Assembly: GCA_951812775.1 (NCBI GenBank)
Contig: OX638326.1
Location: forward strand, 2,367,391-2,431,390
Direction of reading: 5' to 3'
DNA length: 64,000 nt
Source: an uncultured Alphaproteobacteria bacterium
Lineage (GTDB): Bacteria > Pseudomonadota > Alphaproteobacteria > MPNO01 > UBA2964
Both the position numbers and the translations under genes were made by a program. The notes beneath the pieces are model-generated. The model searched no databases, was not told the origin of the DNA, and saw only the letters and a list, made by a program, of their open reading frames with translations. Of this stretch, positions 5,641-31,770 are shown piece by piece (positions within the stretch are counted from its first letter, which is position 1; the number at the start of each line of letters is the position of its first letter).

Positions 5641-5690
5641 GCAATCTTATAGAGCTGGTCTGTGACGACTTAATGAAAATGATTGAGTTA

Positions 5691-5716
5691 CATATTGTTT
5701 ACTACCCAACAATATG
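5691..5716. promoter_or_regulatory. Palindromic operator candidate upstream of the Mo-hydroxylase operon
   Basis: A perfect inverted repeat with 9-base arms (CATATTGTT and AACAATATG) and an 8-base spacer lies in the divergent gap between the ChrA gene and the small subunit gene, about 70 bases before the chosen start. The size suits a dimeric repressor or activator. Which regulator binds is unknown. The same 9-8-9 geometry, with a different sequence, appears at 40589-40614. Confidence 0.5.
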
Positions 5717-5785
5717 ATATCGAAGGATTTCTTGATCCCAGGCGCCCTAAAGCTTGGATTTTCGCCCCAAACAAGGTGGGAGCTG

Positions 5786-6271
5786 ATGAAAAACTTTGTC
5801 TCAATGACGCTCAATGGACGTGCCCGTGACGATGCGATCCCGGGCAACATGCTCCTGATTGATTTTCTTAGAGAGATCGTTGGCTATACAGGCACCAAAA
5901 TTGGCTGTGACGGTGGTGAATGTGGTTGCTGCACTGTCCTCATTGATGGCAAGCCGAGACACGCCTGCCTTACCCTCGCCGCCGTCTGTGATGGGGCTGA
6001 AGTTGAAACCATCGAATCCCTTGAAACCGAGGGCAGACTGTCAGCAATCCAACGCGGATTTCATGAAAAACTGGGCGCTCAATGCGGCTTTTGTACCCCC
6101 GGTATGGTAATGGCCGCCGAGGGCCTCCTGCGCGAAAACCCCGATCCAAATGAAGATGAAATAAGAAAAGGCATGGCAGCCAATATTTGCCGCTGCACTG
6201 GCTATGTAAAAATTATTGAGGCGGTTCAGGCAGCGGCGCAGGAAATCGCTTCGAAGGAGGATGCAGCATGA
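5786..6271 (+). CDS. Molybdenum hydroxylase small subunit, two [2Fe-2S] clusters
   Basis: About 161 residues, the electron-transfer subunit of a xanthine-oxidase-family enzyme. The plant-type ferredoxin motif CDGGECGCC binds the first [2Fe-2S] cluster, and the all-helical C-terminal domain has CGFCTPG and CRCTGY for the second. The open frame extends 24 residues further upstream, but the ATG at 5786 is preceded by AGGTGGGAG at good spacing and matches the usual family N-terminus. It overlaps the large subunit by ATGA. By the content of its operon it corresponds to HcrC of 4-hydroxybenzoyl-CoA reductase. Confidence 0.9.
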   Translation: MKNFVSMTLNGRARDDAIPGNMLLIDFLREIVGYTGTKIGCDGGECGCCTVLIDGKPRHACLTLAAVCDGAEVETIESLETEGRLSAIQRGFHEKLGAQCGFCTPGMVMAAEGLLRENPDPNEDEIRKGMAANICRCTGYVKIIEAVQAAAQEIASKEDAA

Positions 6272-8622: not shown

Positions 8623-9602
8623 TGGAGTTAATGCCCGACTTTGATTTGCATCGCCCGACCGACGTCGAGGAAGCGGTGAGGTTACGCGCCGAAACTGAGG
8701 GCGCGCTTTATGTCGCCGGTGGCACAGATATGATCGTCAATGTCCGGCGCGGCATTGAACAGCCCGCCGCCCTCATCGATCTTTCCTCAGTCAAAGAACT
8801 GCAGGAAATCGTTGAAGATGACGATGGCCTCCACATTGGCGCCGCCGTCACTCTCGAAATTCTTGCCGGCGACACACGTGTTCAAGAAAGCTTCACGGCC
8901 GTTGCTGAAGCCGCCACCGCTGTCGCCGGACCGACACATCAAAGCTACGGCACTGTCGGTGGCAATCTCTGTCTCGACACACGGTGTCTTTTCTATAATC
9001 AGTCCGAATGGTGGCGGAAATCGAACGATTACTGCATGAAAGAGCGTGGCGATATCTGCCATGTCGCCCCTGGCGGCAAACGCTGCTTCGCAGCATTCTC
9101 CGGGGATGTTGCCCCCGCCGCTTTAGTTCACAAAGCCGAGGTCGATTTGGTCAGCGCAACCGGTCGCCGACGCGTGTCCCTGGCCGACATCTATCGTAAT
9201 GACGGAATGAACCATCTTGCAATTGAGCCTGGCGAGCTGCTGGCGGTTCTTCATTTGCCCAAAGCTGAATCAGGCCAACCCTCCACTTATGAGAAAGCGC
9301 GGGTTCGAGGATCAATTGACTTCCCGCTGGCAGGTGCGGCGGTCTGGCTTAATCAATCAGGCGACAAAATCGAAGAATTGCGGATTGCCCTGACAGCGGT
9401 AAATCCTTATCCGCATCTGGTGAAAAATCTGGATAAATTCAGCGGCGTTAAACTCGACGATAATGTTTTGAACGAGATTGCTGAAATGGTTCAGAGCCAG
9501 GCGAAACCCATGCGGACGACAACGGTTAAACCGTGGTATCGCCGTCGCGTTGTCGGCGCGATTGCCCGCCGATTGACGGCCAAACTTTCGCAAGCCAGCT
9601 AG
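8622..9602 (+). CDS. FAD subunit with extra [4Fe-4S]-type insert (HcrB-like)
   Basis: 326 residues. The FAD motif VAGGTDMIVN (31-40) and TVGGNLC (111-117) identify the medium subunit of a xanthine-oxidase-family enzyme. Between the two FAD subdomains an insert of about 40 residues brings C122, C138, C146 and C155 (TRCLFYNQS, DYCMKE, DICHV, KRCFAAFSGD). Ordinary CoxM-type subunits lack this insert. It is the hallmark of the beta subunit of 4-hydroxybenzoyl-CoA reductase, where it holds a [4Fe-4S] cluster that lets the enzyme run as a reductase. A reductive role on an aromatic thioester or related substrate is therefore inferred. Confidence 0.9.
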   Translation: MELMPDFDLHRPTDVEEAVRLRAETEGALYVAGGTDMIVNVRRGIEQPAALIDLSSVKELQEIVEDDDGLHIGAAVTLEILAGDTRVQESFTAVAEAATAVAGPTHQSYGTVGGNLCLDTRCLFYNQSEWWRKSNDYCMKERGDICHVAPGGKRCFAAFSGDVAPAALVHKAEVDLVSATGRRRVSLADIYRNDGMNHLAIEPGELLAVLHLPKAESGQPSTYEKARVRGSIDFPLAGAAVWLNQSGDKIEELRIALTAVNPYPHLVKNLDKFSGVKLDDNVLNEIAEMVQSQAKPMRTTTVKPWYRRRVVGAIARRLTAKLSQAS

Positions 9603-9657
9603 ACCCCTAAGCATATCCTGTCGTAACCTCGCAGGCCTACCGTAGCGGGAAGATAAA

Positions 9658-10773
9658 ATGCGCCAGGATGTAATTCAAAAACAGAAAGCAGCAATGGCTG
9701 CTGCCGGACTCGATGTACTGGTTGCTATCTCGCCTGAGAATTTTGCCTATGGCACAGGGTTTGTTGTGCCGTCTCAACCGCTAATGCGCTGGCGGCACGC
9801 GATTTGCGCGGTTAATTCCGATGGCAAAGCCGGTATCGTTGCCGTCGATATGGAAGAGACCACGGTTCGCGGCAAACTGCCTGATGCCGATATTCGTATC
9901 TGGGGCGAATTTACCGACAAGCCGATGAATGCGCTGGCCCAGCTGATCTCCGATCTCGGCGCAACCAACGGCAAGGTCGGCCTTGAGATGAATTATTTGC
10001 CGGCGGGGGATCACGACCATTTGAAACGATTGCTCCCTGGCGCGATGCTGATCGCCGCCGCCGAAATATTCGACCAGCTGCGACAGATCAAAACGCCGGA
10101 AGAGATAGACCTTCTACAACGCCTGTCACGCATTTCCGACACAGCGATTGCCGCCTCTTTCGACGCCGTAAAAGCGGGTATGACGGAAATGGATATGGCG
10201 GCGGCCCTCACCCGCAGCGTTTACGAACAAGGCGCCGAACATTTCAAACTGATGATCGTCGCCACCGGACCGCGATCAGAATTGCCAAATGTCGGCCCGA
10301 CCGAGCGAATTCTTGAACCGGGCGATATTTGCCGCGTGGAAATTTTCTCGATCATCGACGGCTATCACGCGGGAGTCTGTCGCACCGCATCCGTGGAAGA
10401 CCCACCGGAAAAAGCCGTCGAGATATGGAAGAATCTGGTCGAGTGCAAATACCGGGTGCTCGACGCAATCAGACCAGGGGCCAGCGCCAAGCAGGTCTAT
10501 GAAATTTTCCTGGAGAAGTTTGGCGAGTTAGGTCTGCCACCGATCTCCTTCGTTGGACACGGGATCGGGCTGCATCTGCATGAAGACCCCTACCTTGGAA
10601 AATATGATGACTACACACTCGAAGCTGGCATGGTTCTCGGCATAGAACCATTGGTCTATCAGTCCGGACATGGTTTCGGCCTGCAGCTTAAGGATATGGT
10701 CACCGTCACCGACACAGGCGCCAAACTTCTGTCCGACTCAACCGATACAGATACGCTCTACCGAATTGGATAG
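9658..10773 (+). CDS. M24-family creatinase-like protein lacking metal ligands
   Basis: 371 residues with an N-terminal creatinase domain (about 5-135) and a C-terminal pita-bread domain. Of the five metal ligands of aminopeptidase P/prolidase, alignment by motif gives E228 (for Asp), G239 (for the second Asp), H301, E330 and K345 (for Glu). At least two ligands are gone, so it is more likely a metal-independent C-N hydrolase like creatinase or ectoine hydrolase than a peptidase. The His in VGHGIGLHLHEDP is retained. It follows the Mo-hydroxylase genes by 55 bases with a weak ribosome-binding region (GCGGGAAGATAAA). Confidence 0.85.
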   Translation: MRQDVIQKQKAAMAAAGLDVLVAISPENFAYGTGFVVPSQPLMRWRHAICAVNSDGKAGIVAVDMEETTVRGKLPDADIRIWGEFTDKPMNALAQLISDLGATNGKVGLEMNYLPAGDHDHLKRLLPGAMLIAAAEIFDQLRQIKTPEEIDLLQRLSRISDTAIAASFDAVKAGMTEMDMAAALTRSVYEQGAEHFKLMIVATGPRSELPNVGPTERILEPGDICRVEIFSIIDGYHAGVCRTASVEDPPEKAVEIWKNLVECKYRVLDAIRPGASAKQVYEIFLEKFGELGLPPISFVGHGIGLHLHEDPYLGKYDDYTLEAGMVLGIEPLVYQSGHGFGLQLKDMVTVTDTGAKLLSDSTDTDTLYRIG

Positions 10774-18628: not shown

Positions 18629-18915
18629 ATCGAGCGTAGCAAACTCTCATCCTCCGTTACCCAAAACGTGTTCCGGCGTTCTTCCCAACCCTTTGCTTCC
18701 AGGCCAGACTTAAATGCTGCATTCATATCGACAGGGCTATAGAGCGTTCTGCCCTTTCGCGTCTTTTCTGTCGACACTTTTGTCCGGCAGGCTTCAGCAT
18801 CGACTTGAGCATCGACTTGAGCAATGACGCCCAATAGTTCCGCCCAGAGCTCGGAGTGGTGAACAAGCAGATATTCCTCACCATTTAAATGGGAATATCT
18901 GGCTTTCACCCGCAT
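18577..18915 (-). pseudogene. 3'-truncated BstYI-like type II restriction endonuclease
   Basis: The 112-residue frame matches, from memory, the N-terminal half of BstYI (recognition RGATCY): YSHLNGEEYL, DAEACRTKVSTEKT, LYSPVDMNAAFK, LEAKGWEERRN. The part that should carry the catalytic acidic residues (the EVQFGK-type region) is absent, because the sequence joins a chemoreceptor fragment at about 18595. A 12-base in-frame tandem duplication gives QVDAQVDAEA. It begins in the TAATG overlap with the methyltransferase, a normal restriction-modification arrangement. It should have no nuclease activity. Confidence 0.8.
18797..18820. repeat. 12-bp perfect tandem duplication
   Basis: GCATCGACTTGA occurs twice in a row (18797-18808 and 18809-18820), inside the restriction enzyme remnant. 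Being a multiple of three, it adds four residues without changing frame. It resembles the frame-breaking tandem duplications at 37218, 38362 and 38909. Confidence 0.85.
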
Positions 18916-19835
18916 TAATGACCACCGTTCGGCAGAACCGGGTTATAAACCGGTTTTCCCATGGGGCGGGTGCGCAGTGCCCCGCTACGCCACGCGGCAA
19001 CGCGCTGCTGCGCCAGTTCGACATATTCAGGAACAATATCGCAACCGTAAGCGTCGCGCCCATGCATCAATGCAGCGATAACCGCAGAACCCACTCCCAT
19101 ATATGGGTCAAGAACCACGTCGTTTTCATCGGTCATCGAGAGAACCAGTCTCTCAACCAATTCAACCGGAAATTGGCAGGGGTGGATTGTCTTTTCTGGA
19201 TGGTTATTCTTGACGTTCGGGAACTCCCAGACATCGGACGGGTTCTTACCCTTCGGGTTGCCGGACAGTTTGCCGGTATTCGGCCCTTTGAAATGTTTTT
19301 TGCCTGGATATTTTGATGGAACGCGGATCGGGTCCAAGTGCCACGTGTAATCGTCCGCACGTGTCCACCAATTGATTGTCTCATATCGGCCTGACAGCCG
19401 CCGTGTACAGTGCAAGCCGTGCCCGAAATGCCAGATAATCCGATTCCGCATTTTCAGGCCGCATCTTTGGAAGATTGGGTATGTGAGGATATCCAACGGC
19501 ATTATCTCGCCGTTCTGCACGAAGTTTCCGACCTGCCAGCAAATGGACCCCTTTGGATGCAGAACGCGCACACATTCCTCGATAACGTGCTTTTGCGCCT
19601 CCAAATAGCTGTCCAAGGACGATTTGGCTTCGTAGTCTTTCCCCAAATTGTAAGGAGGTGACGTAACAATCAGTTTGCACTGCCCATCCGGGATCGAGCG
19701 CAAAAATTTCAAATTATCAAGACAGGCCAGCACAGGAACGCGATTATCGTAGGAGCGAACGACCGGCCTTGGGAACAGTGAACGAGCAAGGGCAGCGGGA
19801 TCATTGATGACAGGGGGAATTACGGCGTTATTCAT
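18915..19835 (-). CDS. DNA methyltransferase of a BstYI/BglII-type system (probable N4-cytosine)
   Basis: 306 residues, apparently intact. The catalytic motif TSPPYNLGKDYE (motif IV) comes before the SAM-binding motif LDPYMGVGSAVIAA (motif I), the beta-class order. SPPY is usual in N4-cytosine enzymes and a minority of N6-adenine ones. It overlaps the transposase frame upstream by ATGA and the endonuclease remnant downstream by TAATG, so all three were probably one transcript. With the endonuclease broken it may act as an orphan methyltransferase; RGATCY or GATC-containing specificity is inferred from the partner. Confidence 0.9.
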   Translation of the reverse strand: MNNAVIPPVINDPAALARSLFPRPVVRSYDNRVPVLACLDNLKFLRSIPDGQCKLIVTSPPYNLGKDYEAKSSLDSYLEAQKHVIEECVRVLHPKGSICWQVGNFVQNGEIMPLDILTYPIFQRCGLKMRNRIIWHFGHGLHCTRRLSGRYETINWWTRADDYTWHLDPIRVPSKYPGKKHFKGPNTGKLSGNPKGKNPSDVWEFPNVKNNHPEKTIHPCQFPVELVERLVLSMTDENDVVLDPYMGVGSAVIAALMHGRDAYGCDIVPEYVELAQQRVAAWRSGALRTRPMGKPVYNPVLPNGGH

Positions 19836-20599
19836 CGTGCTTCCCCCACAATCAGATCGCGATACATGAGCCGTTTGCCGATCATCCCCCCAACGATATC
19901 GCGCATTTGATCGATGGTATGCCGGTCGCGGATATTGTGACGGCCTGCGAACTCATTAACATATCGATCAAGGTGCTTTGGGCTGATATTATGGAACGTC
20001 CCTTTGTGCGCTCGCTTAAGCATCGCCCAGAAACTTTCGATTCCATTCGTATGGGCTTGACCGCGCACATATTCGCCAACTGAGTGATTGACAGCTTCAT
20101 GATCACGTCGCACACTTTTATAGCCCGCAGCATCGTCCGTGTAGACCTTTGCGGTCAAATCGCTCACACTTTCAGTGAACCTTCGTAACGTCGCGCCATC
20201 GGTGTTCTTTACTGATCGCGCCGTCACGCGGTTGGTTGTGCGGTCCTTTGCGCCGATAACGGCGGTCTTGCCAACCGGTCCGCGCCCGCTCAGATGTTTG
20301 CGTTTCGCCTTTGGCATATTCTTGCGCTTACCGCCCATGTAGGTTTCGTCGATCTCGACGGGACCGACGAATAATCCTTGTTCGCTAGCAAACGCTTCGC
20401 GGAGCCGATGCGCCATAAACCAAGCCGATTTCTGGGTGATTTTTAAATCGCGATGAAGTTTCATGCTCGAAACACCTTGCAGGCTCGTCGCATTCAAATA
20501 AATCGCGAATGCCCACTTACGGAGAGGTATCTTGGATTGTTCCATGACCGAACCGTGACGTACTGAAAAGAACTTACGGCAATCACGGCATCTATAAGG

Positions 20600-20637
20600 G
20601 AGAGGCTTGCGATTTGCCTTCGGTGCCGTGTTGCGGC
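20600..20637. repeat. 38-bp direct repeat, copy 1, flanking the IS5 insertion
   Basis: This 38-base segment of the IS1595 transposase gene is repeated exactly at 21887-21924. Here it is separated from the left IS5 end by 15 bases of unassigned sequence (20638-20652). IS5 elements normally duplicate only 2-4 bases, so the length is anomalous. Confidence 0.9.
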
Positions 20638-20652
20638 GTGATTTGACCGGGT

Positions 20653-21886
20653 GGGCGCGTCTGAGTGTCGGTTTTTTCGAGCCGTTTTGCGTCGATTTGA
20701 TCGGTTTAGCCGGTCGAACCGGCCGTTCCGGCGTCATGTGGGCGCACTTCGCCCCTGGAGCCAGAGGAAACGGCGCATGTTATACGCCAGATTGGTCATG
20801 CCGATCTTGGCCTCGGCCCGGGCGATGCCGATGGTCCGAACCGAGAGCGCCATCAAGCCTTTCTGATGGGCGAAGACATGCTCGACGGCGGAGCGTACCG
20901 CCGAGCGCGCCGCGTTGGCCTTGGCCAGGGTCGCCGGCATCGGCTTGCCGCGCGGCTTGCGGAAGTGGATCTGGGAGCGCTTGCCTTGGCGCGCCAGCAT
21001 CTTCTCGTTACGCTTGGACCGATAGGCGGTATCCGCCCAGACCGGGCTCGCCGTGTTCTCCGGATCGATCAGACCGGCGAGCTGGCGGCCGTCATTGGCG
21101 GCGGCATCGGTGACGCGCCACTTGCGGATCAACCCGTGCCGCCGGTCCGTGGAGATGTGGTTCTTGTAGCCAAACGCCGGCACCATGATCTCCGGCCCCT
21201 TGGGGTGCCCATCCTCCAGACGCTTCACTCGGCCACGCTTCATGGTCCAGCGCGCATCCCGGTCTTTCTGGGCCAGCTTGGCCGGCTTGTCCTTCCACTC
21301 CTCTGGCACCTTGCCGGCCTTCAACGCCACCTTCTCCGGAACGCTGTTGCGCTGCCTGGGCGCCGCGACGATCGTGGCATCGACGATCTGGCCCGACATC
21401 GCCAGGTAGCCATGGCCGCGCAGGTGTTCGTCGAAGCGATCGAACAACGTCTCGATCGCCTTGGCCTGCACCAGCAACTCACGGAACAGCCAGATCGTCT
21501 TGGCGTCCGGCACCCGGGCGTGAAGCCCCAGGCCCAGGAACCGCATGAAAGACAGCCGGTCGCGGATCTGGAACTCGGTTTGATCATCCGAGAGATTGTA
21601 TAGTGCCTGCAACACCAGGATCTTGAACATCAGAACGGGGTCATAGGGAGGCCGGCCACCCTGGCGCCGGTCCGAGCGACGTAGCGCCCGGATCAAGGGC
21701 TGGCGAAACAACTCGAAATCGACCAACTCACCAAGCCGAAGCAACGGATCACCCGCCGCCGACAGTGCCGCGTAACGCTCATCAAGATCGAAAAAACCGG
21801 GCTGATCCGACATTCCATCCTCCATCAAGCCGATGAGAGAAGTGAAGCAGATCATGGCCAAAATGACGAGGTGTTTAGAGGCGCCC
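20653..21886 (-). mobile_element. IS5-family insertion sequence inside the IS1595 transposase gene
   Basis: About 1.23 kb. Imperfect terminal inverted repeats are GGGCGCGTCTGAG at the left and, reading inwards from the right, GGGCGCCTCTAAA. The right end (21886) is directly followed by the second copy of a 38-base direct repeat. One transposase gene fills the element. Its sequence is markedly richer in G and C than the flanks, consistent with recent arrival. Confidence 0.75.
20734..21813 (-). CDS. IS5-family transposase
   Basis: About 359 residues. The start MSDQPGFFDLDERY at 21813 is preceded by GGAGGATGGA, and the frame further upstream is not native. It has the N-terminal DUF772-like segment (GRPPYDPVLMFKILVLQ) and a DDE catalytic core: VDATIVAAP for the first Asp, WADTAYRSKRNE for the second and RSAVEHVFAHQKG for the Glu. 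It ends within 80 bases of the left inverted repeat. It seems intact, so the element may still be mobile. Confidence 0.9.
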   Translation of the reverse strand: MSDQPGFFDLDERYAALSAAGDPLLRLGELVDFELFRQPLIRALRRSDRRQGGRPPYDPVLMFKILVLQALYNLSDDQTEFQIRDRLSFMRFLGLGLHARVPDAKTIWLFRELLVQAKAIETLFDRFDEHLRGHGYLAMSGQIVDATIVAAPRQRNSVPEKVALKAGKVPEEWKDKPAKLAQKDRDARWTMKRGRVKRLEDGHPKGPEIMVPAFGYKNHISTDRRHGLIRKWRVTDAAANDGRQLAGLIDPENTASPVWADTAYRSKRNEKMLARQGKRSQIHFRKPRGKPMPATLAKANAARSAVRSAVEHVFAHQKGLMALSVRTIGIARAEAKIGMTNLAYNMRRFLWLQGRSAPT

Positions 21887-21924
21887 GAGAGGCTTGCGAT
21901 TTGCCTTCGGTGCCGTGTTGCGGC
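21887..21924. repeat. 38-bp direct repeat, copy 2
   Basis: Identical to 20600-20637 and abutting the right terminus of the IS5-type element. It encodes RNTAPKANRKPL of the interrupted transposase, so the interrupted protein has this peptide in both halves. Confidence 0.9.
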
Positions 21925-22101
21925 TTCCGCATTTTGGGCAAAGCCGGTCTTCCGGCGTAGGCCATCGCACATCCTCAAACCAATCTTCCGCTGATGTTTC
22001 ACAGGGGAACATCTCTGCCAACTCAATCAAGCTGATACCTTCGCGGTGATGTTTACCAGGTGCGTTGTTTGCCATATCATTCTCCTATGTCCCATACATT
22101 A

Positions 22102-22138: not shown

Positions 22139-22669
22139 ATGCAATCCATCGCTAATGCCAGCCGAACCACCCTCCTGCTCAGTTTGCTGACCCTGTCAGC
22201 CTGTGCGACAAACACCGGGCCGTCGGGATTTCTCACCAGCTATGACGGTTTTAGACCGGGACCCAAAGGCGGCGTCGACCGGTTCTGGACACCGCCAAGC
22301 ATAAAAACTGAAGCCGACTTCAAGGCGTCCATCCGAAAATATAATAAAGTCCTGATCGACCCGATCTGGCTGTCGATGAAAAATAAACAGGAAACCTATG
22401 ACGGCATCGATCCCAAGAAGTTAAATCAACTCGTCGATCTGTTTCAAAAGGAAATAGCAAATGCGATCAGCGGCCAATATCAGATCGTCAATCAGCCCGG
22501 TCCCGGCATCCTCCGCCTTTCCCTTGCCCTCACCGGCGTGGAAAGTCCCAACCGACTTCTTGCAGCGACCAGCACGTTGAGCCCTGTTGGGCTCGGTAAA
22601 ATTATGCAGTTCCGTCCCATCAGGCAATTTGGCCGCAAGGTGGCGGCAGTCGTCCTTGTCGCACCATAG
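22139..22669 (+). pseudogene. Lipoprotein of the DUF3313 type, 3' truncated
   Basis: The first 23 residues form a lipoprotein signal (LLLSLLTLSACATN, lipobox LSAC). The following region (GFLTSYDGFRPGPKGG, SIRKYNKVLIDPIWL, ILRLSLALTGVES) resembles the DUF3313 outer-membrane-associated lipoproteins. After ATSTLSPVGLG, at about 22600, the frame leaves the family and becomes the antisense of an exonuclease III fragment. The 3' third is lost. It lies immediately outside the IS1595 end. Confidence 0.7.
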
Positions 22670-22783
22670 TCGCTTTTTAATCCCAACCAGCGGAACCCGC
22701 GACAGGATAGCGACACCGTTATAACTTTTCATGCCGCGAAACAGGATGTGCTCAAAGCCAAGCTTTCGCACGTCATCCGCCGG
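22601..22783 (-). pseudogene. Internal fragment of an exonuclease III (xth) family gene
   Basis: About 60 codons in one frame read ADDVRKLGFEHILFRGMKSY, then NGVAILSR, WCDKDDCRHLAAKLPDG and ELHNF. This is the middle of an exodeoxyribonuclease III family protein (GxKSYNGVAILSR and DELHNF segments). Neither end of the gene is present. It is fused in frame to the start of a luciferase-like gene upstream and abuts the DUF3313 fragment downstream. Confidence 0.75.
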
Positions 22784-22963
22784 GATAACCACGGCATTTT
22801 TGGTTCTCATGGCAAATGCCATGCAGGACACCAGCGATTCCCGGTAGCCGATATGTTCGGTCATCCAAAGCCCGGTCGCGCCTGCCTCTTCGGCCAGGGC
22901 GGCGACCCGGAAGGTCTCGGGGGCATCTTCAAACCCGTCGAAACGTATGCCTATCTTGGGCAT
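22778..22963 (-). pseudogene. 5' fragment of a luciferase-like oxidoreductase gene
   Basis: 62 codons (PKIGIRFDGFEDAPETF, EAGATGLWMTEHIGYRESLV, SCMAFAMRTKNAVVIPA) parallel the first 62 residues of the intact gene just upstream at 23995. It is therefore a second paralogue cut after its first strand-helix units. It continues in frame into the exonuclease III fragment, forming a hybrid reading frame that should not give a working enzyme. Confidence 0.8.
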
Positions 22964-22996: not shown

Positions 22997-23995
22997 CTAT
23001 CGATCTGCGGTAAACTCGCGGATAACTTCTAGTGCCAGGGCCTTCTCTTCATCCGTGCCGCTGACCTCGATCACTGGCTCATCAACACCAGCATCGATAT
23101 AGGCCTGTAGCTGCTCTCGGCACTCGTCCGGCGTACCGGCAACTGTGAACTTCGGCACTGCTTCCGGCGGGACGAGCTGGGCGGCTTCTTCAAGCTTGCG
23201 TTCTTTGACCATCTCCATAATCGAGGCGTGATCGATCTCGATATCGACCGACGCGATATTGTCTGCCTGTGCTGAGTTCCGGAACAGGAAAGCGATCTTG
23301 CGGCGGTTGGCTTCCACGGCATCGGTGCCATTCTTGGAACAGGCGAAATACACAAACCCGGCCTTGCGCACCTCGGACGGATCACGACCCGCCTTTTCTA
23401 TGCCTGCTTCAGCGTAGGCAGCACATTTCTGAATAGACGGCAGCGACAGGCCACCCGAATAAAGCACGCCATCAGCAATGCGTCCGGCAAGGCCGAGTAC
23501 CTGTGGGCCGGTCGAGGCGATAAAGATCGGAATTGGCTTTGGAGGTTTGAACGCCAACCGGGCACCGCGCAGCTGCCAGATCAGCCCTTCCTGATCAACG
23601 GTCTCACCATTCCAAAGTGCACGCAGGGCTTCAACATATTCCCGAATGACTCGCACCGGTTTTTCAGGATGTGGTACCCCGGACTCTCGCAAATTCAGCA
23701 GGTTGCCCACCGAAACACAGATACCGACCCGGCCGGGCGCGGCTTCCGCCATCGTTGCAAACTGCATCGCCGTCGGCATTGGGTGCCAGATATAAGGCAT
23801 GACAGCGGTGGGAACGACCATCGCCCGATTGGTCTTCAAGGCAAAAGCCATGCAGGAAACCGCCGCCTCACGATAGCCAAGATGTTCCGCCATCCAGATG
23901 GTATCGGCGCCTGCGTCCTCCGCCTGTGCCGCAACGTCAATGGTTTCCCCAACGGGATCGAACCCGTCAAACCGCATACCGAGCCTTAATGCCAT
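22997..23995 (-). CDS. LLM-class flavin/F420-dependent oxidoreductase
   Basis: 332 residues with the bacterial-luciferase-like TIM barrel. LGMRFDGFDPVGET, DTIWMAEHLGYRE and GRVGICVSVGN fit the subgroup containing methylene-tetrahydromethanopterin reductase and F420-dependent dehydrogenases. The family uses F420 or FMN; with a complete F420 biosynthesis operon starting about 2.3 kb away, F420 is the likelier cofactor. It is followed on the same strand by a truncated paralogue and preceded by two octopine-dehydrogenase-family genes, probably one transcript. The substrate is unknown. Confidence 0.85.
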   Translation of the reverse strand: MALRLGMRFDGFDPVGETIDVAAQAEDAGADTIWMAEHLGYREAAVSCMAFALKTNRAMVVPTAVMPYIWHPMPTAMQFATMAEAAPGRVGICVSVGNLLNLRESGVPHPEKPVRVIREYVEALRALWNGETVDQEGLIWQLRGARLAFKPPKPIPIFIASTGPQVLGLAGRIADGVLYSGGLSLPSIQKCAAYAEAGIEKAGRDPSEVRKAGFVYFACSKNGTDAVEANRRKIAFLFRNSAQADNIASVDIEIDHASIMEMVKERKLEEAAQLVPPEAVPKFTVAGTPDECREQLQAYIDAGVDEPVIEVSGTDEEKALALEVIREFTADR

Positions 23996-24007
23996 CGTCG
24001 TGTCTCC

Positions 24008-25117
24008 CTAATCGTCAAATCCGTTTTCCAGCAGATCAAGAAATCGTTCCTTCGTCACCCCGGCCAGCCCCATTTTTTCCAGCGTCAACGCGTCCGCTGT
24101 CAGATCGCGCCCCAGCGATACCGACGCCAGATGGATGACATGATCAATCGTTGGCGTGGGTACAGCCGCCAAGCGGCCAAGCTCCGAATAGATAATATGG
24201 CCATAGGGCACGTCTTCGAGGAAATAGCGATGCTCAAGCTGTGGCGGTGCCGGGATCCATTTATCTGGCACACTCTGGTGAAAAGCTTCATAGGCGAGGC
24301 CTGTTTCACGGGCGGCTTCCGTGGTGTAGCCCATCTGATAAAACAGCTCGACAAATGGCATGGTCCTGGCGCCGAGCGCCGCCGCCACGGCGACCCGCTC
24401 GCGATCCACCGCGTCGATCAGCCGGCCGACGGACGGCGTGATCCCATCATAATAATGCCGGAAATCACCACCGGTTGCTTCGACCCGACCGGCATTGCAC
24501 AAAAACGCCGGTGGATGATGGATGGCATTTCCATAGGGAAAGACCGTCTCCAATACGTTCGAGAAAAGCTGCACTGCCGGATAGACAGTACTGACGATGT
24601 CAAACTGGCGTTTTGTTTCCACGCCCGGAAAGCCGCCAAACACCATAAAGTCCGACACGCGGGAAATCCGGCAGGTGGTGGGCCCGGTACGACGACAGAG
24701 ATAGGGCAAGGCCGCGGTCTCGCAAAAGACGGGGTTCTTGATGCCATTGGCACACAGAATATGCGGTATGAGCATCAGCGTGTGACCGGGTGAGACGAAC
24801 AAGGTCTGATCATCCGTCAAATGCGGTGCTGCCGCTGAAATCCATTTTTCGTGCAGATGCGCCGGGCTGACGATCATCACCAGCTCAGCCCCTGCCATAG
24901 CGGTAGCCGCATCTGACGTGATCACCGGTATCTTGGCGAAGCCTTTTCCAAACGGCGCGTCATATTCGATTCCGCCAATTTCCTGCAGGGGCTTGAGCGC
25001 GCTTTCATCCTGGCTATAAAGCCGAATTTCAAAACCGAGGGTTGTCAGGTGGGCTGCTGCCGACATACCGCCGCCACCGGCCCCAAAAATTGCAATATTT
25101 TTGACAGGGGAGGTCAT
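24008..25117 (-). CDS. NAD/NADP octopine-dehydrogenase family protein (copy 2)
   Basis: 369 residues. The N-terminal Rossmann motif IAIFGAGGGGMSAAAHLT (7-24) binds NAD(P). The C-terminal helical domain of the octopine/nopaline dehydrogenase type has NAIHHPPAFLCNAGRVEATGG and a possible catalytic His in HHP. The family forms or oxidises opine-like secondary amines, but many members are uncharacterised. It overlaps the upstream paralogue by four bases (ATGA). With the paralogue and the LLM gene it forms a unit divergent from the F420 operon. Confidence 0.85.
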   Translation of the reverse strand: MTSPVKNIAIFGAGGGGMSAAAHLTTLGFEIRLYSQDESALKPLQEIGGIEYDAPFGKGFAKIPVITSDAATAMAGAELVMIVSPAHLHEKWISAAAPHLTDDQTLFVSPGHTLMLIPHILCANGIKNPVFCETAALPYLCRRTGPTTCRISRVSDFMVFGGFPGVETKRQFDIVSTVYPAVQLFSNVLETVFPYGNAIHHPPAFLCNAGRVEATGGDFRHYYDGITPSVGRLIDAVDRERVAVAAALGARTMPFVELFYQMGYTTEAARETGLAYEAFHQSVPDKWIPAPPQLEHRYFLEDVPYGHIIYSELGRLAAVPTPTIDHVIHLASVSLGRDLTADALTLEKMGLAGVTKERFLDLLENGFDD

Positions 25118-26220
25118 TGCGTTCCCTCCTCGACAAAGCGTAGAACACCTTCGGCATCCAGACCGCCGAGACCCATCGCTTCCAATGTCAAACCATCCGT
25201 CGCGTAGGGAATGCCCATCATCTCAGATGTCAGATGAATATGCGCATCAATTGTCGGTGTGGGAACGCCAGCGAGCCTGCCAAACCCGGCAAACGGCACC
25301 AGCCCATATCCGACATCCTCATGGATATAGCGATGATCCAGCGACGGCGGACTCTTGATCTTCCAGTTGGGTTCGCTCTCGACACAGGCGCGCGAGACGT
25401 CGCCTGTGTCCATCGCCTCTTTGGTTGTCAGACCCGCCTGATAAAAATTCTCAAGGAAACTGGCGGTAGGAACACCTAGCGCTTGGGCAACTGCCATACG
25501 CTCTGCGTCAAGCTCGGCTATGACCCGGCCAACGGCGGGCGTAATGCCTTCGCGATAAAACAGGAAGTCGCCACCGGTATCCTCGATCCAGCCGGCATTC
25601 ATCAACATGCCCGGTGCATGAAACACCGCGTTGATATTGGTCAGGGCGGTTTCCAGCACACTGCTGACCAGCGTGATCTCGGGATATAGGGGTTTAACGA
25701 GATCAAACATTTCCGCCGCATGCTTACCGGGGAACGCCGCGAATTTGAGCTTCTTGGTATAGGAGAAAATATCGACCGACGCCGGTCCCGTTTTACGACA
25801 GATATAGGTGAGCGTGACGGTCTCGCAGGTCTTTACCGCCTCTGCATAACCCGCTTTCCGTAGTTCGTTGACAAAATGCAGTGCGCCGCCGGTATGACCG
25901 GGGTTTACGAATACCGGGATATCCGGTGTCAAGAGCGGCGCCAATGCCTTTGCATAAAACCCGTGTGCCACGGAGGGGACCACCAACATAATAATGTCCG
26001 CCCCGGACACCGCTTCCGCGACATCGGTCGTCAACAGGTTCACCGGGAATAGTCCCTGCTGAACACCCGCGGCCTGAACACCACCCTGTTCTCGTATCGG
26101 CTCAAGGCTTTCCGAGCGTCTCGCGTGGAGCCGGATCTCAAATCCGCGCGCCGTAAGATCTGCTGCTGCAGCACAGCCGCCATGCCCGCCCCCTAATATC
26201 GCAACTGTTTTAACGGTCAT
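25114..26220 (-). CDS. NAD/NADP octopine-dehydrogenase family protein (copy 1)
   Basis: 368 residues. The Rossmann motif is VAILGGGHGGCAAAADLT near the N-terminus, and the C-terminal domain has NAVFHAPGMLMNAGWIEDTGG and TIDAHIHLTSEM. It is about as long as copy 2 and shares its architecture, so the pair arose by duplication; they may form a heteromer or act on related substrates. It is first in a minus-strand unit and divergent from cofGH, with 95 bases between the starts. No transport genes lie nearby. Confidence 0.85.
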   Translation of the reverse strand: MTVKTVAILGGGHGGCAAAADLTARGFEIRLHARRSESLEPIREQGGVQAAGVQQGLFPVNLLTTDVAEAVSGADIIMLVVPSVAHGFYAKALAPLLTPDIPVFVNPGHTGGALHFVNELRKAGYAEAVKTCETVTLTYICRKTGPASVDIFSYTKKLKFAAFPGKHAAEMFDLVKPLYPEITLVSSVLETALTNINAVFHAPGMLMNAGWIEDTGGDFLFYREGITPAVGRVIAELDAERMAVAQALGVPTASFLENFYQAGLTTKEAMDTGDVSRACVESEPNWKIKSPPSLDHRYIHEDVGYGLVPFAGFGRLAGVPTPTIDAHIHLTSEMMGIPYATDGLTLEAMGLGGLDAEGVLRFVEEGTQ

Positions 26221-26315
26221 TCATCCACAGGGGCCTGTCGCCCGTCTTTTCCTCATCCAAGATCGGCAGTATGGTCCTATAAATTAGTTCCGTCATCCGT
26301 ATCAGGATTGCCTCA

Positions 26316-28646
26316 TTGGGCGTGCAAACATTTTCTACTGAATATCCGCTGAGTGTCCCGCTCTCTGAGTTGCTTGGAAAAGCGGCTAACTTGCGCGATT
26401 CCTGCCATGCCGACCGCCTGTCCTATTCGCGGAAAGTGTTTATTCCACTGACCCGGCTGTGCCGCGACAGCTGCAGCTACTGCACCTTCGCCACGACACC
26501 CCGGAATGTTCCCGCCCCTTATTTGACGCCCGAGGAGGTTTTAAAGATCGCCCGTGATGGTAAAGCGGCGGGCTGCAAGGAAGCCCTCTTTACGCTCGGC
26601 GATAAGCCGGAGCTGCGTTACGAAGCTGCCCGCGAGGCCCTGACCGAATTGGGTTATGCCTCAACAATCGAGTATCTCGCCGCGATGTGTGCATTGGTAT
26701 TCGAGGAAACCGGTTTGCTGCCACACGCCAACCCCGGTGCGATGACACAAAGAGAAATCCACATCCTAAGGCCGGTCACGGTTTCGATGGGGATGATGCT
26801 GGAATCCACCGCCCCTGCCCTGTGCGAACCGGGCGGGGCGCATTTCGGCTCGCCAGACAAGGAACCTGCAGCACGTTTGGAAACTTTGCGCTCAGCGGGT
26901 TTGGCAAAAGTTCCCTTCACCACGGGTATTCTCATCGGGATCGGTGAGACACGGGAACAGCGACTTAACGACTTGCAGACAATCCGCGACTTCCGCGAAG
27001 AACACGGTCATATTCAGGAAATCATCATCCAGAATTTCCGCGCCAAACCGACAACACGGATGGCAAATGCACCTGAACCGGACCTAACTGACCTCTTATG
27101 GACCATCGCCTGTGCCAGGCTGATTTTTGGTGCAACGATGAATATTCAGGCACCGCCGAACTTGAGCCCGGAGGTCTATCCACGACTGGTCTCCGCCGGT
27201 CTCAATGATTGGGGCGGCATTTCACCGGTAACACCAGATCACGTGAACCCAGAAGCGGCCTGGCCGGAAATCCCGGTGTTGGCTCAACGGTCGGCAGAGG
27301 TTGGAAAGGTGTTGGTCGAAAGGCTCGCTGTCTATCCTTCCTATGTCGAGGAAGCTTCACATTGGATGGCGCCAGCAATGGCGACCGCTGCTATTCGGTT
27401 TAGTGATGCAGAGGGGCTGGCACGCCCTGAAGACTGGGCCCCGGGTCTCGATCTTTCTCCGCCTGCTATGATGTCACAACGGTCCCAACCGTCGCTTGAT
27501 ATCCAGAACATTCTTGGAATGGCAGTGGATGGTAACTCACCGACTGAAACTGAAATCACCCGACTGTTCGCGGCCCGCGACAGAGATTTCGACATCATCT
27601 GCGAAACCGCCGATACGCTGCGCCGTTCGACTGTTGGCGACGATGTTACCTATGTCGTGAACCGCAATATCAACTACACCAATATCTGCACCTATCGCTG
27701 TACGTTTTGCGCCTTCTCCAAAGGTAAGACTGCGGAAACGCTGCGCGGCAAACCCTACCGGCTGGAGATGCAAGAGATTGGGCGTCGCGCCACGGAAGCC
27801 TGGAATCGCGGTGCTACCGAGGTTTGCCTGCAAGGCGGAATTCATCCGGAGTATACCGGCGCGACTTATCTTGAGATCTGCGCCACTATCAAAGACGCTG
27901 CCCCCGAAATGCATATTCATGCATTCTCACCATTGGAGATTACCCAGGGCGCAAGGACACCAGGCCTTTCTATTGAGACGTTTTTGTCACGCCTCAAGGA
28001 AGCAGGGTTGGCATCACTACCGGGAACCGCCGCTGAAATTCTCGATGATGGTGTCAGGAAAACCCTATGCCCTGACAAGCTAAACACTCAAGAATGGCTC
28101 ACTGTCATGGAAACGGCCCATCGATTGGGCCTCCGCACCACTGCCACCATCATGTATGGCCATATGGAACACCCGGTCCACTGGGCACGCCACTTACTGA
28201 AGGTCAGAGCGCTCCAGGAACGCACCGGTGGATTCACAGAATTTGTTCCTCTGCCCTTTGTGCATATGGAAGCCCCCGCCTATCTCAAGGGGCTTGCGCG
28301 GCGTGGCCCGACCTACCGGGAAGCTGTTTTGATGCATGCTATCGCCCGGATAGTCCTGCACCCTCTTATCCCGAATATTCAGGTCTCCTGGGTGAAAATG
28401 GGGGCGGAAGGTATTCAGGCCTGCCTGAATGCCGGCGTCAATGACCTCGGCGGTACTTTAATGAATGAGAGCATTTCGCGCGCCGCAGGAACGGTTCACG
28501 GCCAGGAATGTAATCCAAGAGAGATGGAACGAATGATCAAGAACGCGGGACGACACGCCGTTCAGCGCACAACACTGTATAATAAAGTGACCGGCGAACG
28601 CGCGGAGGCTTCGTATCAAGCCGAGCCTCTCGCCGCAATTGCTTAA
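26316..28646 (+). CDS. fbiC: F0 synthase, fused CofG-CofH (FbiC)
   Basis: 776 residues, the fused form of 7,8-didemethyl-8-hydroxy-5-deazariboflavin synthase. Two radical SAM domains build the deazaflavin F0 from tyrosine and a flavin precursor. The N-terminal CofG half has C49, C53 and C56 (CRDSCSYC); the C-terminal CofH half has C458, C462 and C465 (CTYRCTFC). Length and order match actinobacterial FbiC. The chosen start gives MGVQTFSTEYPL, but the open frame begins with a TTG in a region without a strong ribosome-binding site. It heads a five-gene F420 operon. Confidence 0.95.
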   Translation: MGVQTFSTEYPLSVPLSELLGKAANLRDSCHADRLSYSRKVFIPLTRLCRDSCSYCTFATTPRNVPAPYLTPEEVLKIARDGKAAGCKEALFTLGDKPELRYEAAREALTELGYASTIEYLAAMCALVFEETGLLPHANPGAMTQREIHILRPVTVSMGMMLESTAPALCEPGGAHFGSPDKEPAARLETLRSAGLAKVPFTTGILIGIGETREQRLNDLQTIRDFREEHGHIQEIIIQNFRAKPTTRMANAPEPDLTDLLWTIACARLIFGATMNIQAPPNLSPEVYPRLVSAGLNDWGGISPVTPDHVNPEAAWPEIPVLAQRSAEVGKVLVERLAVYPSYVEEASHWMAPAMATAAIRFSDAEGLARPEDWAPGLDLSPPAMMSQRSQPSLDIQNILGMAVDGNSPTETEITRLFAARDRDFDIICETADTLRRSTVGDDVTYVVNRNINYTNICTYRCTFCAFSKGKTAETLRGKPYRLEMQEIGRRATEAWNRGATEVCLQGGIHPEYTGATYLEICATIKDAAPEMHIHAFSPLEITQGARTPGLSIETFLSRLKEAGLASLPGTAAEILDDGVRKTLCPDKLNTQEWLTVMETAHRLGLRTTATIMYGHMEHPVHWARHLLKVRALQERTGGFTEFVPLPFVHMEAPAYLKGLARRGPTYREAVLMHAIARIVLHPLIPNIQVSWVKMGAEGIQACLNAGVNDLGGTLMNESISRAAGTVHGQECNPREMERMIKNAGRHAVQRTTLYNKVTGERAEASYQAEPLAAIA

Positions 28647-28656
28647 GGAGAATGTG

Positions 28657-29349
28657 ATGTCAGATGAAAGACCCGTCATCGCGGTTATCGGCGGTACCGG
28701 CCGTCAGGGTTCGGGGCTGGCCGCACGCTGGGCGAAAGCGGGCTACCCCGTCATTATCGGATCGCGTGATGCCGCCCGCGCCCAGGAAACTGCCGATGAA
28801 ATCTCCGCAAGAGCACCGGCTTCCGGCGGAGGGGGTAAAGTACGGGGCACTGACAATCTGACAGCGGCTACAGAGGGCGAGATCATCGTCCTCGCCGTCC
28901 CTTATTCCAATCAACTGAACACGCTGAAACCACTTGCGGATGCACTTGCGGGAAAAATATTAATCGATGTTACAGCACCTCTGGTTCCACCAAAGGTCGG
29001 AACGGTCCAATTACCGGAAGGCGGTTCGGCTGTTGTTGCGGCACAGGAAATGCTGGGAGATGAGGTTACCGTCGTCGCTGCTTTTCAAAATATCGCCGCA
29101 CAACACCTGGCGGATCTTGAGCATAAAATTGATTGCGATGTTCTGGTTTGCGGGAACAAAAAGGCTGCCAGAGAAATCGCGATCCGGCTCGTGTCTGATG
29201 CGGGAATGACTGGGTGGCACGCCGGCCCCCTCGCCAATGCCGCGGCGGCCGAGGCCATGACGTCAGTGCTTATCTTTATCAATCGCGCCCATAAAATACC
29301 CGGCTCGGGTATTCGTATAACCGGGACGCCCGCTGAGCCCGAAGACTGA
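28657..29349 (+). CDS. npdG: NADPH:F420 oxidoreductase
   Basis: About 230 residues. The start at 28657 has AAGGAG six bases upstream and overlaps nothing, whereas the longer frame begins inside the cofGH end. The Rossmann motif AVIGGTGRQGSGLAARWAKA and GSRDAARAQ (the Ser-Arg pair favouring NADPH) are diagnostic of Npd/Fno enzymes, which exchange hydride between F420 and NADP. KIPGSGIRITG closes the protein. Its presence in the biosynthesis operon supports active F420 turnover rather than relict genes. Confidence 0.9.
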   Translation: MSDERPVIAVIGGTGRQGSGLAARWAKAGYPVIIGSRDAARAQETADEISARAPASGGGGKVRGTDNLTAATEGEIIVLAVPYSNQLNTLKPLADALAGKILIDVTAPLVPPKVGTVQLPEGGSAVVAAQEMLGDEVTVVAAFQNIAAQHLADLEHKIDCDVLVCGNKKAAREIAIRLVSDAGMTGWHAGPLANAAAAEAMTSVLIFINRAHKIPGSGIRITGTPAEPED

Positions 29350-29352
29350 ACG

Positions 29353-30183
29353 ATGGATGCCTCACCAGTCAGATCGGATAACGTGGCCGCAAATCAGACT
29401 GCCAGCCAACTTTCCATTACCGCATTACCCGGCATTCCGCTGATCAATCCTGGAGATGATCTGGCCGGCATTATCGGTAGGGGCTTGAAGGATTGCGACA
29501 TATCGCTTCAGGACGGAGACATACTGGTCCTGGCACAAAAAATTATCTCAAAATCCGAGGGCCGCTATGCCGCCCTGGACTCTGTATCACCATCGGTCGC
29601 CGCCATGGAACTTGCTGGGGAGGTGGACAAAGATCCGCGGCTCGTGGAGCTCATTCTTTCTGAATCAAAAACGGTGGTCAGAAAACGCAAAGGCGTTTTA
29701 ATCGTCGAACATAACCTCGGAATTGTCATGGCCAATGCAGGTATCGATGCCTCCAACGTAGAGCCGCTGGAAGACGACAAGTCCGGTGAAGCGGCACAGC
29801 AAGTATTGCTTTTGCCGGAGAACCCCGACGCCAGTTGCAAAGACCTTCGTGATCGTTTCCAAACAAAGACCGGCGCCGATATCGCCGTGATAATCAACGA
29901 CAGCGTCGGGCGGGCTTGGCGGAACGGTACTGTCGGGATGGCTATTGGCACCGCCGGCATAGATGCATTGCTTGATCTCAACGGCAGACCCGATCTTTTC
30001 GATCGTCCTCTCCAGGCCACTCAGGTGGGTCTCGCTGACGAACTTTCTTCCGCCGCTTCTATCGTCATGGGGCAAGCCGACGAAGGACGCCCGGTGGTTC
30101 ATATACGTGGCTACGGCACAGCTTCCGGACACGGAAATGCTCAGGACCTGATTCGTGCCGAGGAACAGGATTTGTTCCGCTGA
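29353..30183 (+). CDS. cofE: Coenzyme F420-0:L-glutamate ligase
   Basis: 276 residues. This GTP-dependent ligase adds the gamma-glutamyl tail to F420-0. Family motifs seen are LPGIPLINPGDDLAGII, AQKIISKSEGR, NDSVGRAWRNGTVGMAIG and a terminal GQADEGRPVVHIRGYG. It is the single-domain form: the C-terminal nitroreductase-like domain of mycobacterial FbiB, which reduces dehydro-F420-0, is absent. It follows npdG by three bases. That absence bears on which three-carbon precursor the organism uses. Confidence 0.95.
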   Translation: MDASPVRSDNVAANQTASQLSITALPGIPLINPGDDLAGIIGRGLKDCDISLQDGDILVLAQKIISKSEGRYAALDSVSPSVAAMELAGEVDKDPRLVELILSESKTVVRKRKGVLIVEHNLGIVMANAGIDASNVEPLEDDKSGEAAQQVLLLPENPDASCKDLRDRFQTKTGADIAVIINDSVGRAWRNGTVGMAIGTAGIDALLDLNGRPDLFDRPLQATQVGLADELSSAASIVMGQADEGRPVVHIRGYGTASGHGNAQDLIRAEEQDLFR

Positions 30184-30199
30184 GGTACAGGCTTACGAT

Positions 30200-31150
30200 A
30201 TGATCCTCGCATTGGCAGGTGGCGTTGGCGGCGCCAAGTTGGCACACGGGCTGGCCCGCAATATTGATCCTTCAGAATTGGTGATCGCGGTGAATACGGG
30301 TGATGATTTTCTTCACCTCGATTATTTCATCTGCCCCGATTTGGACTCGGTCCTTTATAAGCTCGCGGGCATCAATGACATCGAGCGTGGTTGGGGTATT
30401 CGTGATGAGAGCTGGAACTTCATGGAGTCCCTCAAGAAAGTTGGGGGCGAAGACTGGTTCCAGCTCGGTGACAAGGATCTTGCCACCCATATCGAACGAT
30501 CTAGGCTTCTATCCGAAGGGCAAACACTTTCGGAAGTCACTCGGGCGCTGTGTCGGAAACATAATGTCGTCCATACCATCGTGCCGATGACTGATCACCG
30601 AGTCGGCACAATCGTAGATACTCAAGAAGGTGATTTCTTTTTTCAGGACTATTTTGTGCGCCTGCGTTGCGAGCCTGCTTTCACCGGCGTTCATTATAAA
30701 GGCATGGAGGACGCCACACCCTCACCGCAATTCAGCAAGGCTCTCGAAAGCGCCGACCTTAAAGCAATTATATTTTGTCCCTCCAATCCTTTCGTCAGTA
30801 TTGATCCGATTCTCAATGTTCCCGGCGTAACCGGCGCACTCAGAACAACCGAAACCCCGGTCATTGCCGTGTCTCCGATCATCGGAGGCCAGGCCATAAA
30901 AGGACCAGCGGCCAAGATGATGGCGGAGTTGGACCTCCCGGTATCTCCGCTCGGGATCGCTCAGCATTATGGGGGATTGATCGACGGGTTGATAATCGAC
31001 AATGAAGACAGAATGCTTGTAGGACCTATCATGGCTACTGGCATTGATGCTTACGCCACAAATACGCTGATGCGTTCAGCTGAGGATGAAAGCCTTCTGG
31101 CGCAAGAAACCTTGAGCTTTGTACGCGGGCTTTCAGGAAATAGGCCTTGA
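30200..31150 (+). CDS. cofD: 2-phospho-L-lactate (or analogue) transferase to F0
   Basis: About 316 residues from the ATG at 30200, where the protein begins MILALAGGVGGAKLAHGLAR, the usual CofD N-terminus; the longer frame overlaps cofE. CofD transfers the phospho-lactyl-type group from the nucleotide-activated intermediate to F0. VNTGDDFLHLDYFICPDLDSVLY and SPIIGGQAIKGPAAKMM are typical. It lies between cofE and cofC. Whether the donor carries 2-phospholactate, phosphoenolpyruvate or 3-phosphoglycerate cannot be decided here. Confidence 0.95.
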   Translation: MILALAGGVGGAKLAHGLARNIDPSELVIAVNTGDDFLHLDYFICPDLDSVLYKLAGINDIERGWGIRDESWNFMESLKKVGGEDWFQLGDKDLATHIERSRLLSEGQTLSEVTRALCRKHNVVHTIVPMTDHRVGTIVDTQEGDFFFQDYFVRLRCEPAFTGVHYKGMEDATPSPQFSKALESADLKAIIFCPSNPFVSIDPILNVPGVTGALRTTETPVIAVSPIIGGQAIKGPAAKMMAELDLPVSPLGIAQHYGGLIDGLIIDNEDRMLVGPIMATGIDAYATNTLMRSAEDESLLAQETLSFVRGLSGNRP

Positions 31151-31155
31151 TCTGG

Positions 31156-31770
31156 ATGTCTGTCGCCGCGGTCATTCCTGTCAAACCCCTTGTCGAAGGC
31201 AAAAGCCGCCTCGCGTCGGTTCTGACCGATGAACAACGAGTGATACTGAATAAGAATTTATACCGCCATGTCCTCAAAACAGTCATCGCAACACCTGCAA
31301 TTAACGATGTACTTGTCATTAGCAGTGATGAGGAGGTCCTGACCCTCGCCGAAGAGGCGGGTGCTCACGCGATTCCGGAAGGGGAAAATTCCAACCTGAA
31401 TGCTGCTCTTGAGATTGCCCGAAAAGCAGGGACAATACTCGGTGCTTCTGCTTTGCTGGTGGTCCCCGCCGATCTGGTCACGCTCAAGACTTCGGACCTG
31501 ACCGCCATTCTCTCGACGGCAGAACGAAGTAATACCGTGGAATCAATTGTGATTGCGCCGGACGCCAATCATCAGGGTACCAACGCTCTATTTCTTCGAC
31601 CGGTTGATGCGATTGCTTTCTCATTCGGCGAAAACAGTTTCGAAACGCACCGAAAAACCGCCGAGGAAGCGGGCTGTCGCATTGCAATAGTTGAACGGCC
31701 AAATTTAAGTTTCGATGTCGACGAGCCCGACGACCTGAAACATCTGGAAGACCATTTCTGGCGTGATTAG
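31156..31770 (+). CDS. cofC: 2-phospho-L-lactate guanylyltransferase-type enzyme
   Basis: About 204 residues. It begins SVAAVIPVKPLVEGKSRLASVL, the nucleotidyltransferase N-terminal loop of CofC/FbiD, and has VPADLVTLKTSDL for metal binding. It activates a phosphorylated three-carbon acid with GTP for CofD. The start ATG at 31156 lies six bases after the cofD stop; a TTG overlapping that stop is an alternative. Last gene of the F420 operon; it converges with the MFS gene, overlapping its 3' end by four bases. Confidence 0.9.
   Translation: MSVAAVIPVKPLVEGKSRLASVLTDEQRVILNKNLYRHVLKTVIATPAINDVLVISSDEEVLTLAEEAGAHAIPEGENSNLNAALEIARKAGTILGASALLVVPADLVTLKTSDLTAILSTAERSNTVESIVIAPDANHQGTNALFLRPVDAIAFSFGENSFETHRKTAEEAGCRIAIVERPNLSFDVDEPDDLKHLEDHFWRD

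Follow-up and report, generated by a model that had tools for sequence, protein, structure and literature searches.

We analysed a 64,000-nucleotide stretch of the genome of an uncultured alphaproteobacterium (GenBank assembly GCA_951812775.1, contig OX638326.1, positions 2,367,391 to 2,431,390 of the forward strand; henceforth referred to as the window, in which positions are counted from the first base), where two genes for opine-type dehydrogenases and one for a luciferase-like enzyme lie back to back with an operon for the synthesis of coenzyme F420. The divergent operon on the minus strand begins with ODH1 (25114-26220), which encodes an Octopine_DH-family dehydrogenase of 368 amino acids, and continues with its paralogue ODH2 (24008-25117, 369 amino acids), the start of which overlaps the stop of ODH1 by four bases (25114-25117, common to both open reading frames (ORFs)), and with LLM (22997-23995, 332 amino acids), which encodes a putative luciferase-like hydride transferase whose nearest solved relatives are the F420-dependent methylenetetrahydromethanopterin reductases (Mer). 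Both dehydrogenases score above the Pfam cut-off of 30 bits for Octopine_DH (PF02317; 139.9 and 152.1 bits) and are 45% identical over 365 aligned columns, and the Bac_luciferase domain of LLM reaches 190.7 bits against a Pfam cut-off of 27.9. ODH1 and ODH2 were the only two genes returned by an Octopine_DH search of the host's 4.15-Mb single-contig genome. On the plus strand, separated from the start of ODH1 by 95 bases, lies the F420 operon (26316-31770), which comprises a CofGH fusion (FO synthase; 26316-28646; 1135.2 bits versus a curated cut-off of 1018), the NADPH-dependent F420 reductase NpdG/Fno (28639-29349; TIGR01915, 199.3 bits versus 149.8), the F420-0:glutamate ligase CofE (29353-30183; TIGR01916, 257.5 bits versus 180.65), the 2-phospho-L-lactate transferase CofD (30155-31150; 287.9 bits versus a curated cut-off of 257.45) and the guanylyltransferase CofC (31147-31770; above the Pfam cut-off), that is, the full set of F420 synthesis genes plus NpdG. 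These coordinates and domain scores agree with the arrangement described in an earlier note on this DNA (tandem paralogues with a four-base overlap, then LLM, divergent from the F420 operon), and this layout is not a chance reading, since related genomes have orthologues of ODH1, ODH2 and LLM arranged in this way.

A scan of species genomes for ODH1, which detects close relatives only, returned eight loci, seven of them in records titled alphaproteobacterial, rhodospirillacean or proteobacterial and one in a record titled Flavobacteriales. The F420 operon is divergent from ODH1 and ODH2 in seven of the eight; in one of these (L005) the contig stops within ODH2, with LLM out of view. At the eighth locus (L009, genome G025) the order is LLM2 (a second LLM gene) and ODH1, two short ORFs, then ODH2 and LLM, and no match to the window's F420 proteins was found within the 10 kb flank on either side. 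When eight ODH1-CofGH intergenic regions were aligned (26221-26315 in the window), short blocks were seen to be conserved, with ATACTG and GGAAAAGA invariant; these blocks possibly represent a shared control site, and a promoter scan was uninformative (5 sites versus 5.2 expected). The record titled Flavobacteriales (L010, NHFY01000027.1) has the same locus, with an ODH1 that is 81% identical, so the record is probably mislabelled or mixed. At another locus (L003, genome G003, 3176-9674) CofGH, NpdG and an MFS gene are spread over several frames or contain stops, and the ODH and LLM genes read through; the broken frames may be an assembly error.

To describe the distribution of these genes we used the 27 genomes returned for the host's order, which represent 11 genera and four families (f1-f4). 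An ODH1 orthologue (64-100% identity) is present in 16 of the 27, and CofG was found in all 16. LLM (E <= 1e-60) was found in 15 of the 16 genomes with ODH1 and in none of the 11 without it, and two further genes follow the same pattern: an M24 (creatinase/prolidase-fold) hydrolase (E <= 1e-70), encoded in the window at 9658-10773 on the plus strand, 12 kb from LLM and with two transposase genes between (15/16 versus 0/11), and an MR/MLE-type member of the enolase superfamily (E <= 1e-70; 16/16 versus 1/11). The ODH1 genome without LLM and M24 (G004) is 67% complete, with a contig end inside ODH2, and the one genome with the enolase and no ODH1 (G006) belongs to the window's genus and is 69% complete. 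When the comparison is restricted to the 11 genomes with a completeness of 90% or more and a contamination of 5% or less, LLM, M24 and the enolase occur in 7/7 with ODH1 versus 0/4 without, and CofG in 7/7 versus 2/4. By genus, ODH1, LLM, M24 and the enolase are jointly present in six of the 11 and jointly absent in five, although two of these five rest on single genomes, 79% and 83% complete; in two further genomes (G017 and G019) the only ODH is a distant one (29-31% identity). Both states of the set occur within three of the four families, and the set therefore seems to have been gained or lost as a whole more than once. The enolase gene of the window's genome is 1.3 Mb away (C1:3728977), so the shared pattern is not merely one of shared location. 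The expectation that the trio is conserved beside F420 genes in other genomes was also borne out within the order: no more than about 6 kb separates ODH1 from CofGH in 14 genomes out of 16, across three families and with other genes rearranged around the two.

The model of ODH1 (pLDDT 85.1) has as its best fold match in the PDB the N-(1-D-carboxylethyl)-L-norvaline dehydrogenase (CENDH) of Arthrobacter 1C (1bg6; TM 0.87/0.91, 35% identity), a member of the opine dehydrogenase family. N197, H201 and D302 of ODH1 align with N198, H202 and D297 of CENDH, and the same residues are found in ODH2; from work on CENDH we take H202 and D297, with N198, to be catalytic positions. Across 46 ODH sequences the His, Arg and Asp at positions 201, 297 and 302 are kept in all; at the position of CENDH N198, 32 sequences have Asn and 13 have Gly, and one is unread. 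After strand 2 the alignment places Ala-Arg-Arg in ODH1 where CENDH has the acidic residue Asp, which suggests that ODH1 uses NADP(H). We read ODH1 and ODH2 as two distinct NAD(P)-dependent enzymes with the CENDH fold, each catalytically complete, which would most likely act on related intermediates at a C-N bond (a secondary amine or imine with a neighbouring carboxylate). We considered whether they instead act at a C-OH/C=O bond, that is, on a 2-hydroxy or 3-hydroxy acid, with 'opine' being a family name only. Ketopantoate reductases and D-mandelate dehydrogenases do occur further down the PDB fold list of ODH1, and at seven distant loci an ODH gene stands beside a gene of one and the same cluster, the one scored member of which is a 3-hydroxybutyryl-CoA dehydrogenase homologue; however, the nearest solved structure, CENDH, forms amines and is far ahead in the list (4.6e-33 versus 9.3e-19 for the next, octopine dehydrogenase), and all three of its N/H/D positions are matched in both paralogues. 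We judge action on a hydroxy acid unlikely, yet deserving of serious weight beside the C-N reading. In contrast to CENDH, ODH1 and ODH2 are two paralogues kept together and tied to F420 and LLM genes.

The best match of LLM, in sequence (8.5e-37) as well as in fold (8qpl and 1z69; TM 0.89 for a model of pLDDT 88.9), is Mer. A Mer function could nevertheless be excluded, because LLM scores below both curated Mer cut-offs (172.2 versus 276 and 141 versus 348.7) and because, in the register of the LLM-Mer alignment, the position of the catalytic Glu6 of Mer holds Arg in 21 and Ser in six of the 27 family members counted (those of 34 LLM rows with more than 40% identity). A Glu6 to Gln mutant of Mer retains 0.4% of kcat (PMC11094777). 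Judged by its modelled fold LLM looks F420-dependent: the first 24 PDB fold matches, several of which are repeated chains, are all F420-dependent enzymes, and the first FMN-type enzyme appears at rank 25. It might be argued that the F420-ODH/LLM adjacency is an inherited gene order without a functional link and that LLM uses FMN, as do some of its relatives; six of the 22 genomes of the order that have CofG lack the set. Against this stand the fold ranking and the closeness of ODH1 to CofGH, which survives in three families despite rearranged neighbours, and we regard such an accident of gene order as improbable. F420-dependence of LLM thus remains our preferred reading, and family members of this kind are described in a 2021 review as catalysing nitroaromatic ring reduction in catabolism and cyclic imine reduction in biosynthesis (PMC8498797).

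The earlier note suggested that ODH1 and ODH2 form a two-subunit dehydrogenase, and the four-base overlap, which suggests coupled translation, together with the retention of ODH2 in 15 of the 16 ODH1 genomes, could be read in favour of an obligate heteromer. In a tree made by a quick method, with long outgroup branches, ODH1 and ODH2 fall into separate clades (SH-aLRT 100 and 94), each of which extends across families f1-f4; this tree and that of LLM exclude matches covering less than 70% of the query. The two genes are on separate contigs in five genomes of family f2 (G013, G016, G018, G020 and G024); the distance between them is about 7 kb in G015 and 1.5 kb in G025, and in G009 (93% complete) the search of the order's genomes found ODH1 and no ODH2. 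Two complete active sites and frequent separation of the genes argue for two enzymes rather than a heteromer, in which case the overlap means only coupled expression, and on linkage and on residues kept in both we rejected the two-subunit enzyme as highly improbable.

Searches of the class and the phylum scored no more than five candidates from each genome, or eight in the class search for M24. Among 385 genomes of the class an ODH-family match (E <= 1e-30) was found in 21, CofG in 60 and both in nine. A close LLM (E <= 1e-50) is present in four of the 385, which are exactly those with a close ODH1; of 235 class genomes searched for M24, the two belonging to the window's genus were the only ones with a match; and among 398 genomes of the phylum an ODH1 match at E <= 1e-50 was seen only in the window's own genome. 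The earlier note had named as its refuting case genomes in which the pair is common without LLM or F420 genes. In the order no genome with ODH1 lacks CofG, and single distant ODHs do occur without F420 genes, as CofG is missing from 12 of the 17 genomes of the class that lie outside the order and have an ODH. A general link between ODH and F420 across the class was dropped, since outside the order it is not significant (CofG in 5/17 ODH-positive versus 51/363 ODH-negative genomes, p = 0.088). The exact set is thus seen only in this order, and the distant ODH relatives (27-34% identity to ODH1) do other things: at the seven distant loci mentioned above (L090, L094, L096 and L098-L101) the ODH gene adjoins or overlaps the gene of that one cluster, the scored member being that of L098 (PRK08269), and the two make a recurring pair. 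A tandem ODH pair in another class genome (G319, locus L089), 8 kb from CofGH and 4.5 kb past CofC, was not used as independent support: its long branches in the tree group away from those of ODH1 and ODH2, its neighbour is an ABC permease, and NpdG is replaced by an Fgd gene.

Relatives of ODH1 that are closer than these distant ones, at about 38% identity, were found on plasmids of Aminobacter, Shinella and Phyllobacterium. An M24 orthologue (E <= 1e-60; 53-63% identity) occurs in 13 plasmid records, the enolase in the same 13, and, among the ODH matches listed, an ODH lies at most 6.4 kb from M24 in all of them, in one case across the record start. The plasmid enolase is 62-68% identical to that of the window's genome, of four f2 genomes and of G015, and 44-45% identical to those of G009 and G010. 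The three plasmid stretches that were read contain the enolase, M24, an amidohydrolase, ODH, a DpsA-like protein, another amidohydrolase, a tautomerase, an isochorismatase-family protein and RidA, and differ from the window's set in having one ODH and a DpsA-like partner; the gene table for these stretches, which is incomplete, shows no F420 gene, and the search did not extend to the chromosomes of the hosts. The enolase-M24-ODH core is probably an older catabolic module, which in the order studied here probably comes with a pair of ODHs and with F420 chemistry. Malate synthase G is encoded in the Aminobacter stretch and not listed in those of Phyllobacterium and Shinella, a weak lead that hints at glyoxylate as a product. 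Several of the rhizobial plasmids with the core are recorded as coming from cultures, and it is there that the substrate of the core could be sought first.

Overall, the interpretation we favour, and to which we give an even chance, is that this locus provides the redox steps of a dedicated F420-using catabolic pathway, with two separate NAD(P)-dependent dehydrogenases and an F420-dependent hydride transferase. NpdG, as a member of its family, moves hydride between NADPH and F420, and its presence in the operon fits a supply of F420H2 from NADPH, presumably the working direction; going by this context and by its fold, LLM would act on a pathway intermediate as an F420-dependent hydride transferase, most likely an F420H2-dependent reductase. 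The creatinase-like M24 hydrolase and the MR/MLE enzyme, which share the ODHs' pattern of presence and absence even when encoded at another place in the genome, would cooperate with the dehydrogenases, and the pathway probably takes as its substrate a carboxylic acid that contains nitrogen. Opines, N-carboxymethyl amino acids, mycosporine-like amino acids and N-heterocycles were considered as substrates and not adopted, as the evidence separates none of them. A bolder version, about which we are rather doubtful, has the hydride transferase and the two opine-type dehydrogenases acting one after another at a single C-N centre, while NpdG keeps NADPH and F420H2 in balance and the F420 part is grafted onto the older enolase-M24-ODH core, which elsewhere would run without F420. 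That the ODH/LLM set, standing beside the cof genes, instead modifies F420 itself during cofactor maturation is scarcely credible and was rejected because other F420 producers do without the set (the same six of 22 CofG genomes of the order have no ODH1 and 56 of the 60 of the class sample no close LLM) and because the partner families are also encoded on plasmids, where the stretches examined list no F420 gene. Of the linked pathway first proposed for these genes, the F420 link thus holds at the level of genes, by co-occurrence and adjacency, the two-subunit form fails, and the chemistry is what we infer for a catabolic pathway that uses F420.

Several points weigh against such a pathway. The tie of the set to F420 rests on its adjacency to the cof genes and on the predicted fold of LLM, and two genomes (G009 and G025) hold their ODH and LLM genes on contigs other than that of CofG. 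CofG is found also in six of the 11 genomes without ODH1 and in all 11 genera of the order, so the presence of F420 genes alone is not diagnostic, and the association of ODH1 with CofG in the order (16/16 versus 6/11, p = 0.0057) is weak, arising partly from incomplete genomes. Genomes of one order are non-independent samples, and the 13 plasmid records are close relatives rather than 13 independent cases. The enolase count mixes two subgroups that are 44-50% identical, with only the second in G009 and G010 and both in G015. The use of amines by ODH1 and ODH2 is a prediction from conserved residues and fold. The 2021 review gives only trace F420 for two cultured alphaproteobacteria, from which a minor or niche role has been inferred (PMC8498797). 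Lastly, no match to LLM was found in the plasmid collection at E <= 1e-30, and the chemistry of the core may therefore run without F420.

Among known systems, a further comparison is with the F420H2-dependent picrate hydride transferase, which is paired with NpdG. This enzyme of Rhodococcus, Nocardia and Nocardioides likewise belongs to the LLM family and feeds a catabolic pathway, and differs in that it comes from Actinobacteria, acts on nitroaromatics and is accompanied by no opine-type dehydrogenase named in the available part of the review; the likeness is one of description (PMC8498797). In the openly licensed literature we found no account of octopine dehydrogenase with coenzyme F420, creatinase or muconate cycloisomerase, nor of nopaline dehydrogenase with Xaa-Pro peptidase or mandelate racemase, and listings of papers on F420 in Alphaproteobacteria, on NpdG and picrate, on opine dehydrogenase gene clusters, on F420-dependent imine reductases and on F420 in catabolism showed no such system. 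The set consists of known families in a combination for which no description was found in openly licensed papers. If the bolder version of the pathway is correct, it would to our knowledge be the first case in Alphaproteobacteria of F420 serving a dedicated catabolic pathway. For what reason Proteobacteria and other recently discovered F420 producers make the cofactor is an open question according to the same review (PMC8498797). The set described here is a concrete and bounded candidate for such a reason: few enzymes, with shared presence and absence, close to the F420 genes.

Other genes near the locus differ between genera and name no single substrate. In the window, M24 is preceded on the plus strand by genes for a 4-hydroxybenzoyl-CoA reductase-type enzyme (5714-9602; gamma 5714-6271, alpha 6268-8622 and beta 8622-9602), homologues of which are found in related loci of the genus. 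Against the curated cut-offs the alpha and beta subunits score above (1125.4 versus 994.55 and 431.1 versus 404.55) and the gamma subunit just under (246.5 versus 257.8); alpha matches 1rm6 with 955.5 bits, and beta is aligned over its length. 4-hydroxybenzoyl-CoA reductase is usually an enzyme of anaerobic aromatic degradation, here encountered in an alphaproteobacterium, and a part for it in the pathway is only suggested by its position. Genomes of family f2 have acyl-CoA ligase genes between ODH1 and CofGH, in some together with a UbiD gene, and G015 has a further LLM gene next to one for hydantoinase A. In five of the eight ODH1 loci LLM is followed by LLM2. In the window LLM2 is reduced to a 62-residue N-terminal stub (22778-22963, minus strand, inside the ORF 22421-22963), which is 97% identical to the intact LLM2 of locus L004 and has insertion sequences nearby. 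On the same strand, a single overlapping run near the truncated gene (18915-22026) contains IS1595- and IS5-type transposase genes, which score above their cut-offs, and an N6/N4 DNA methylase gene. In G002 about 6 kb lie between M24 and LLM, and part of this inserted stretch is common with the window.

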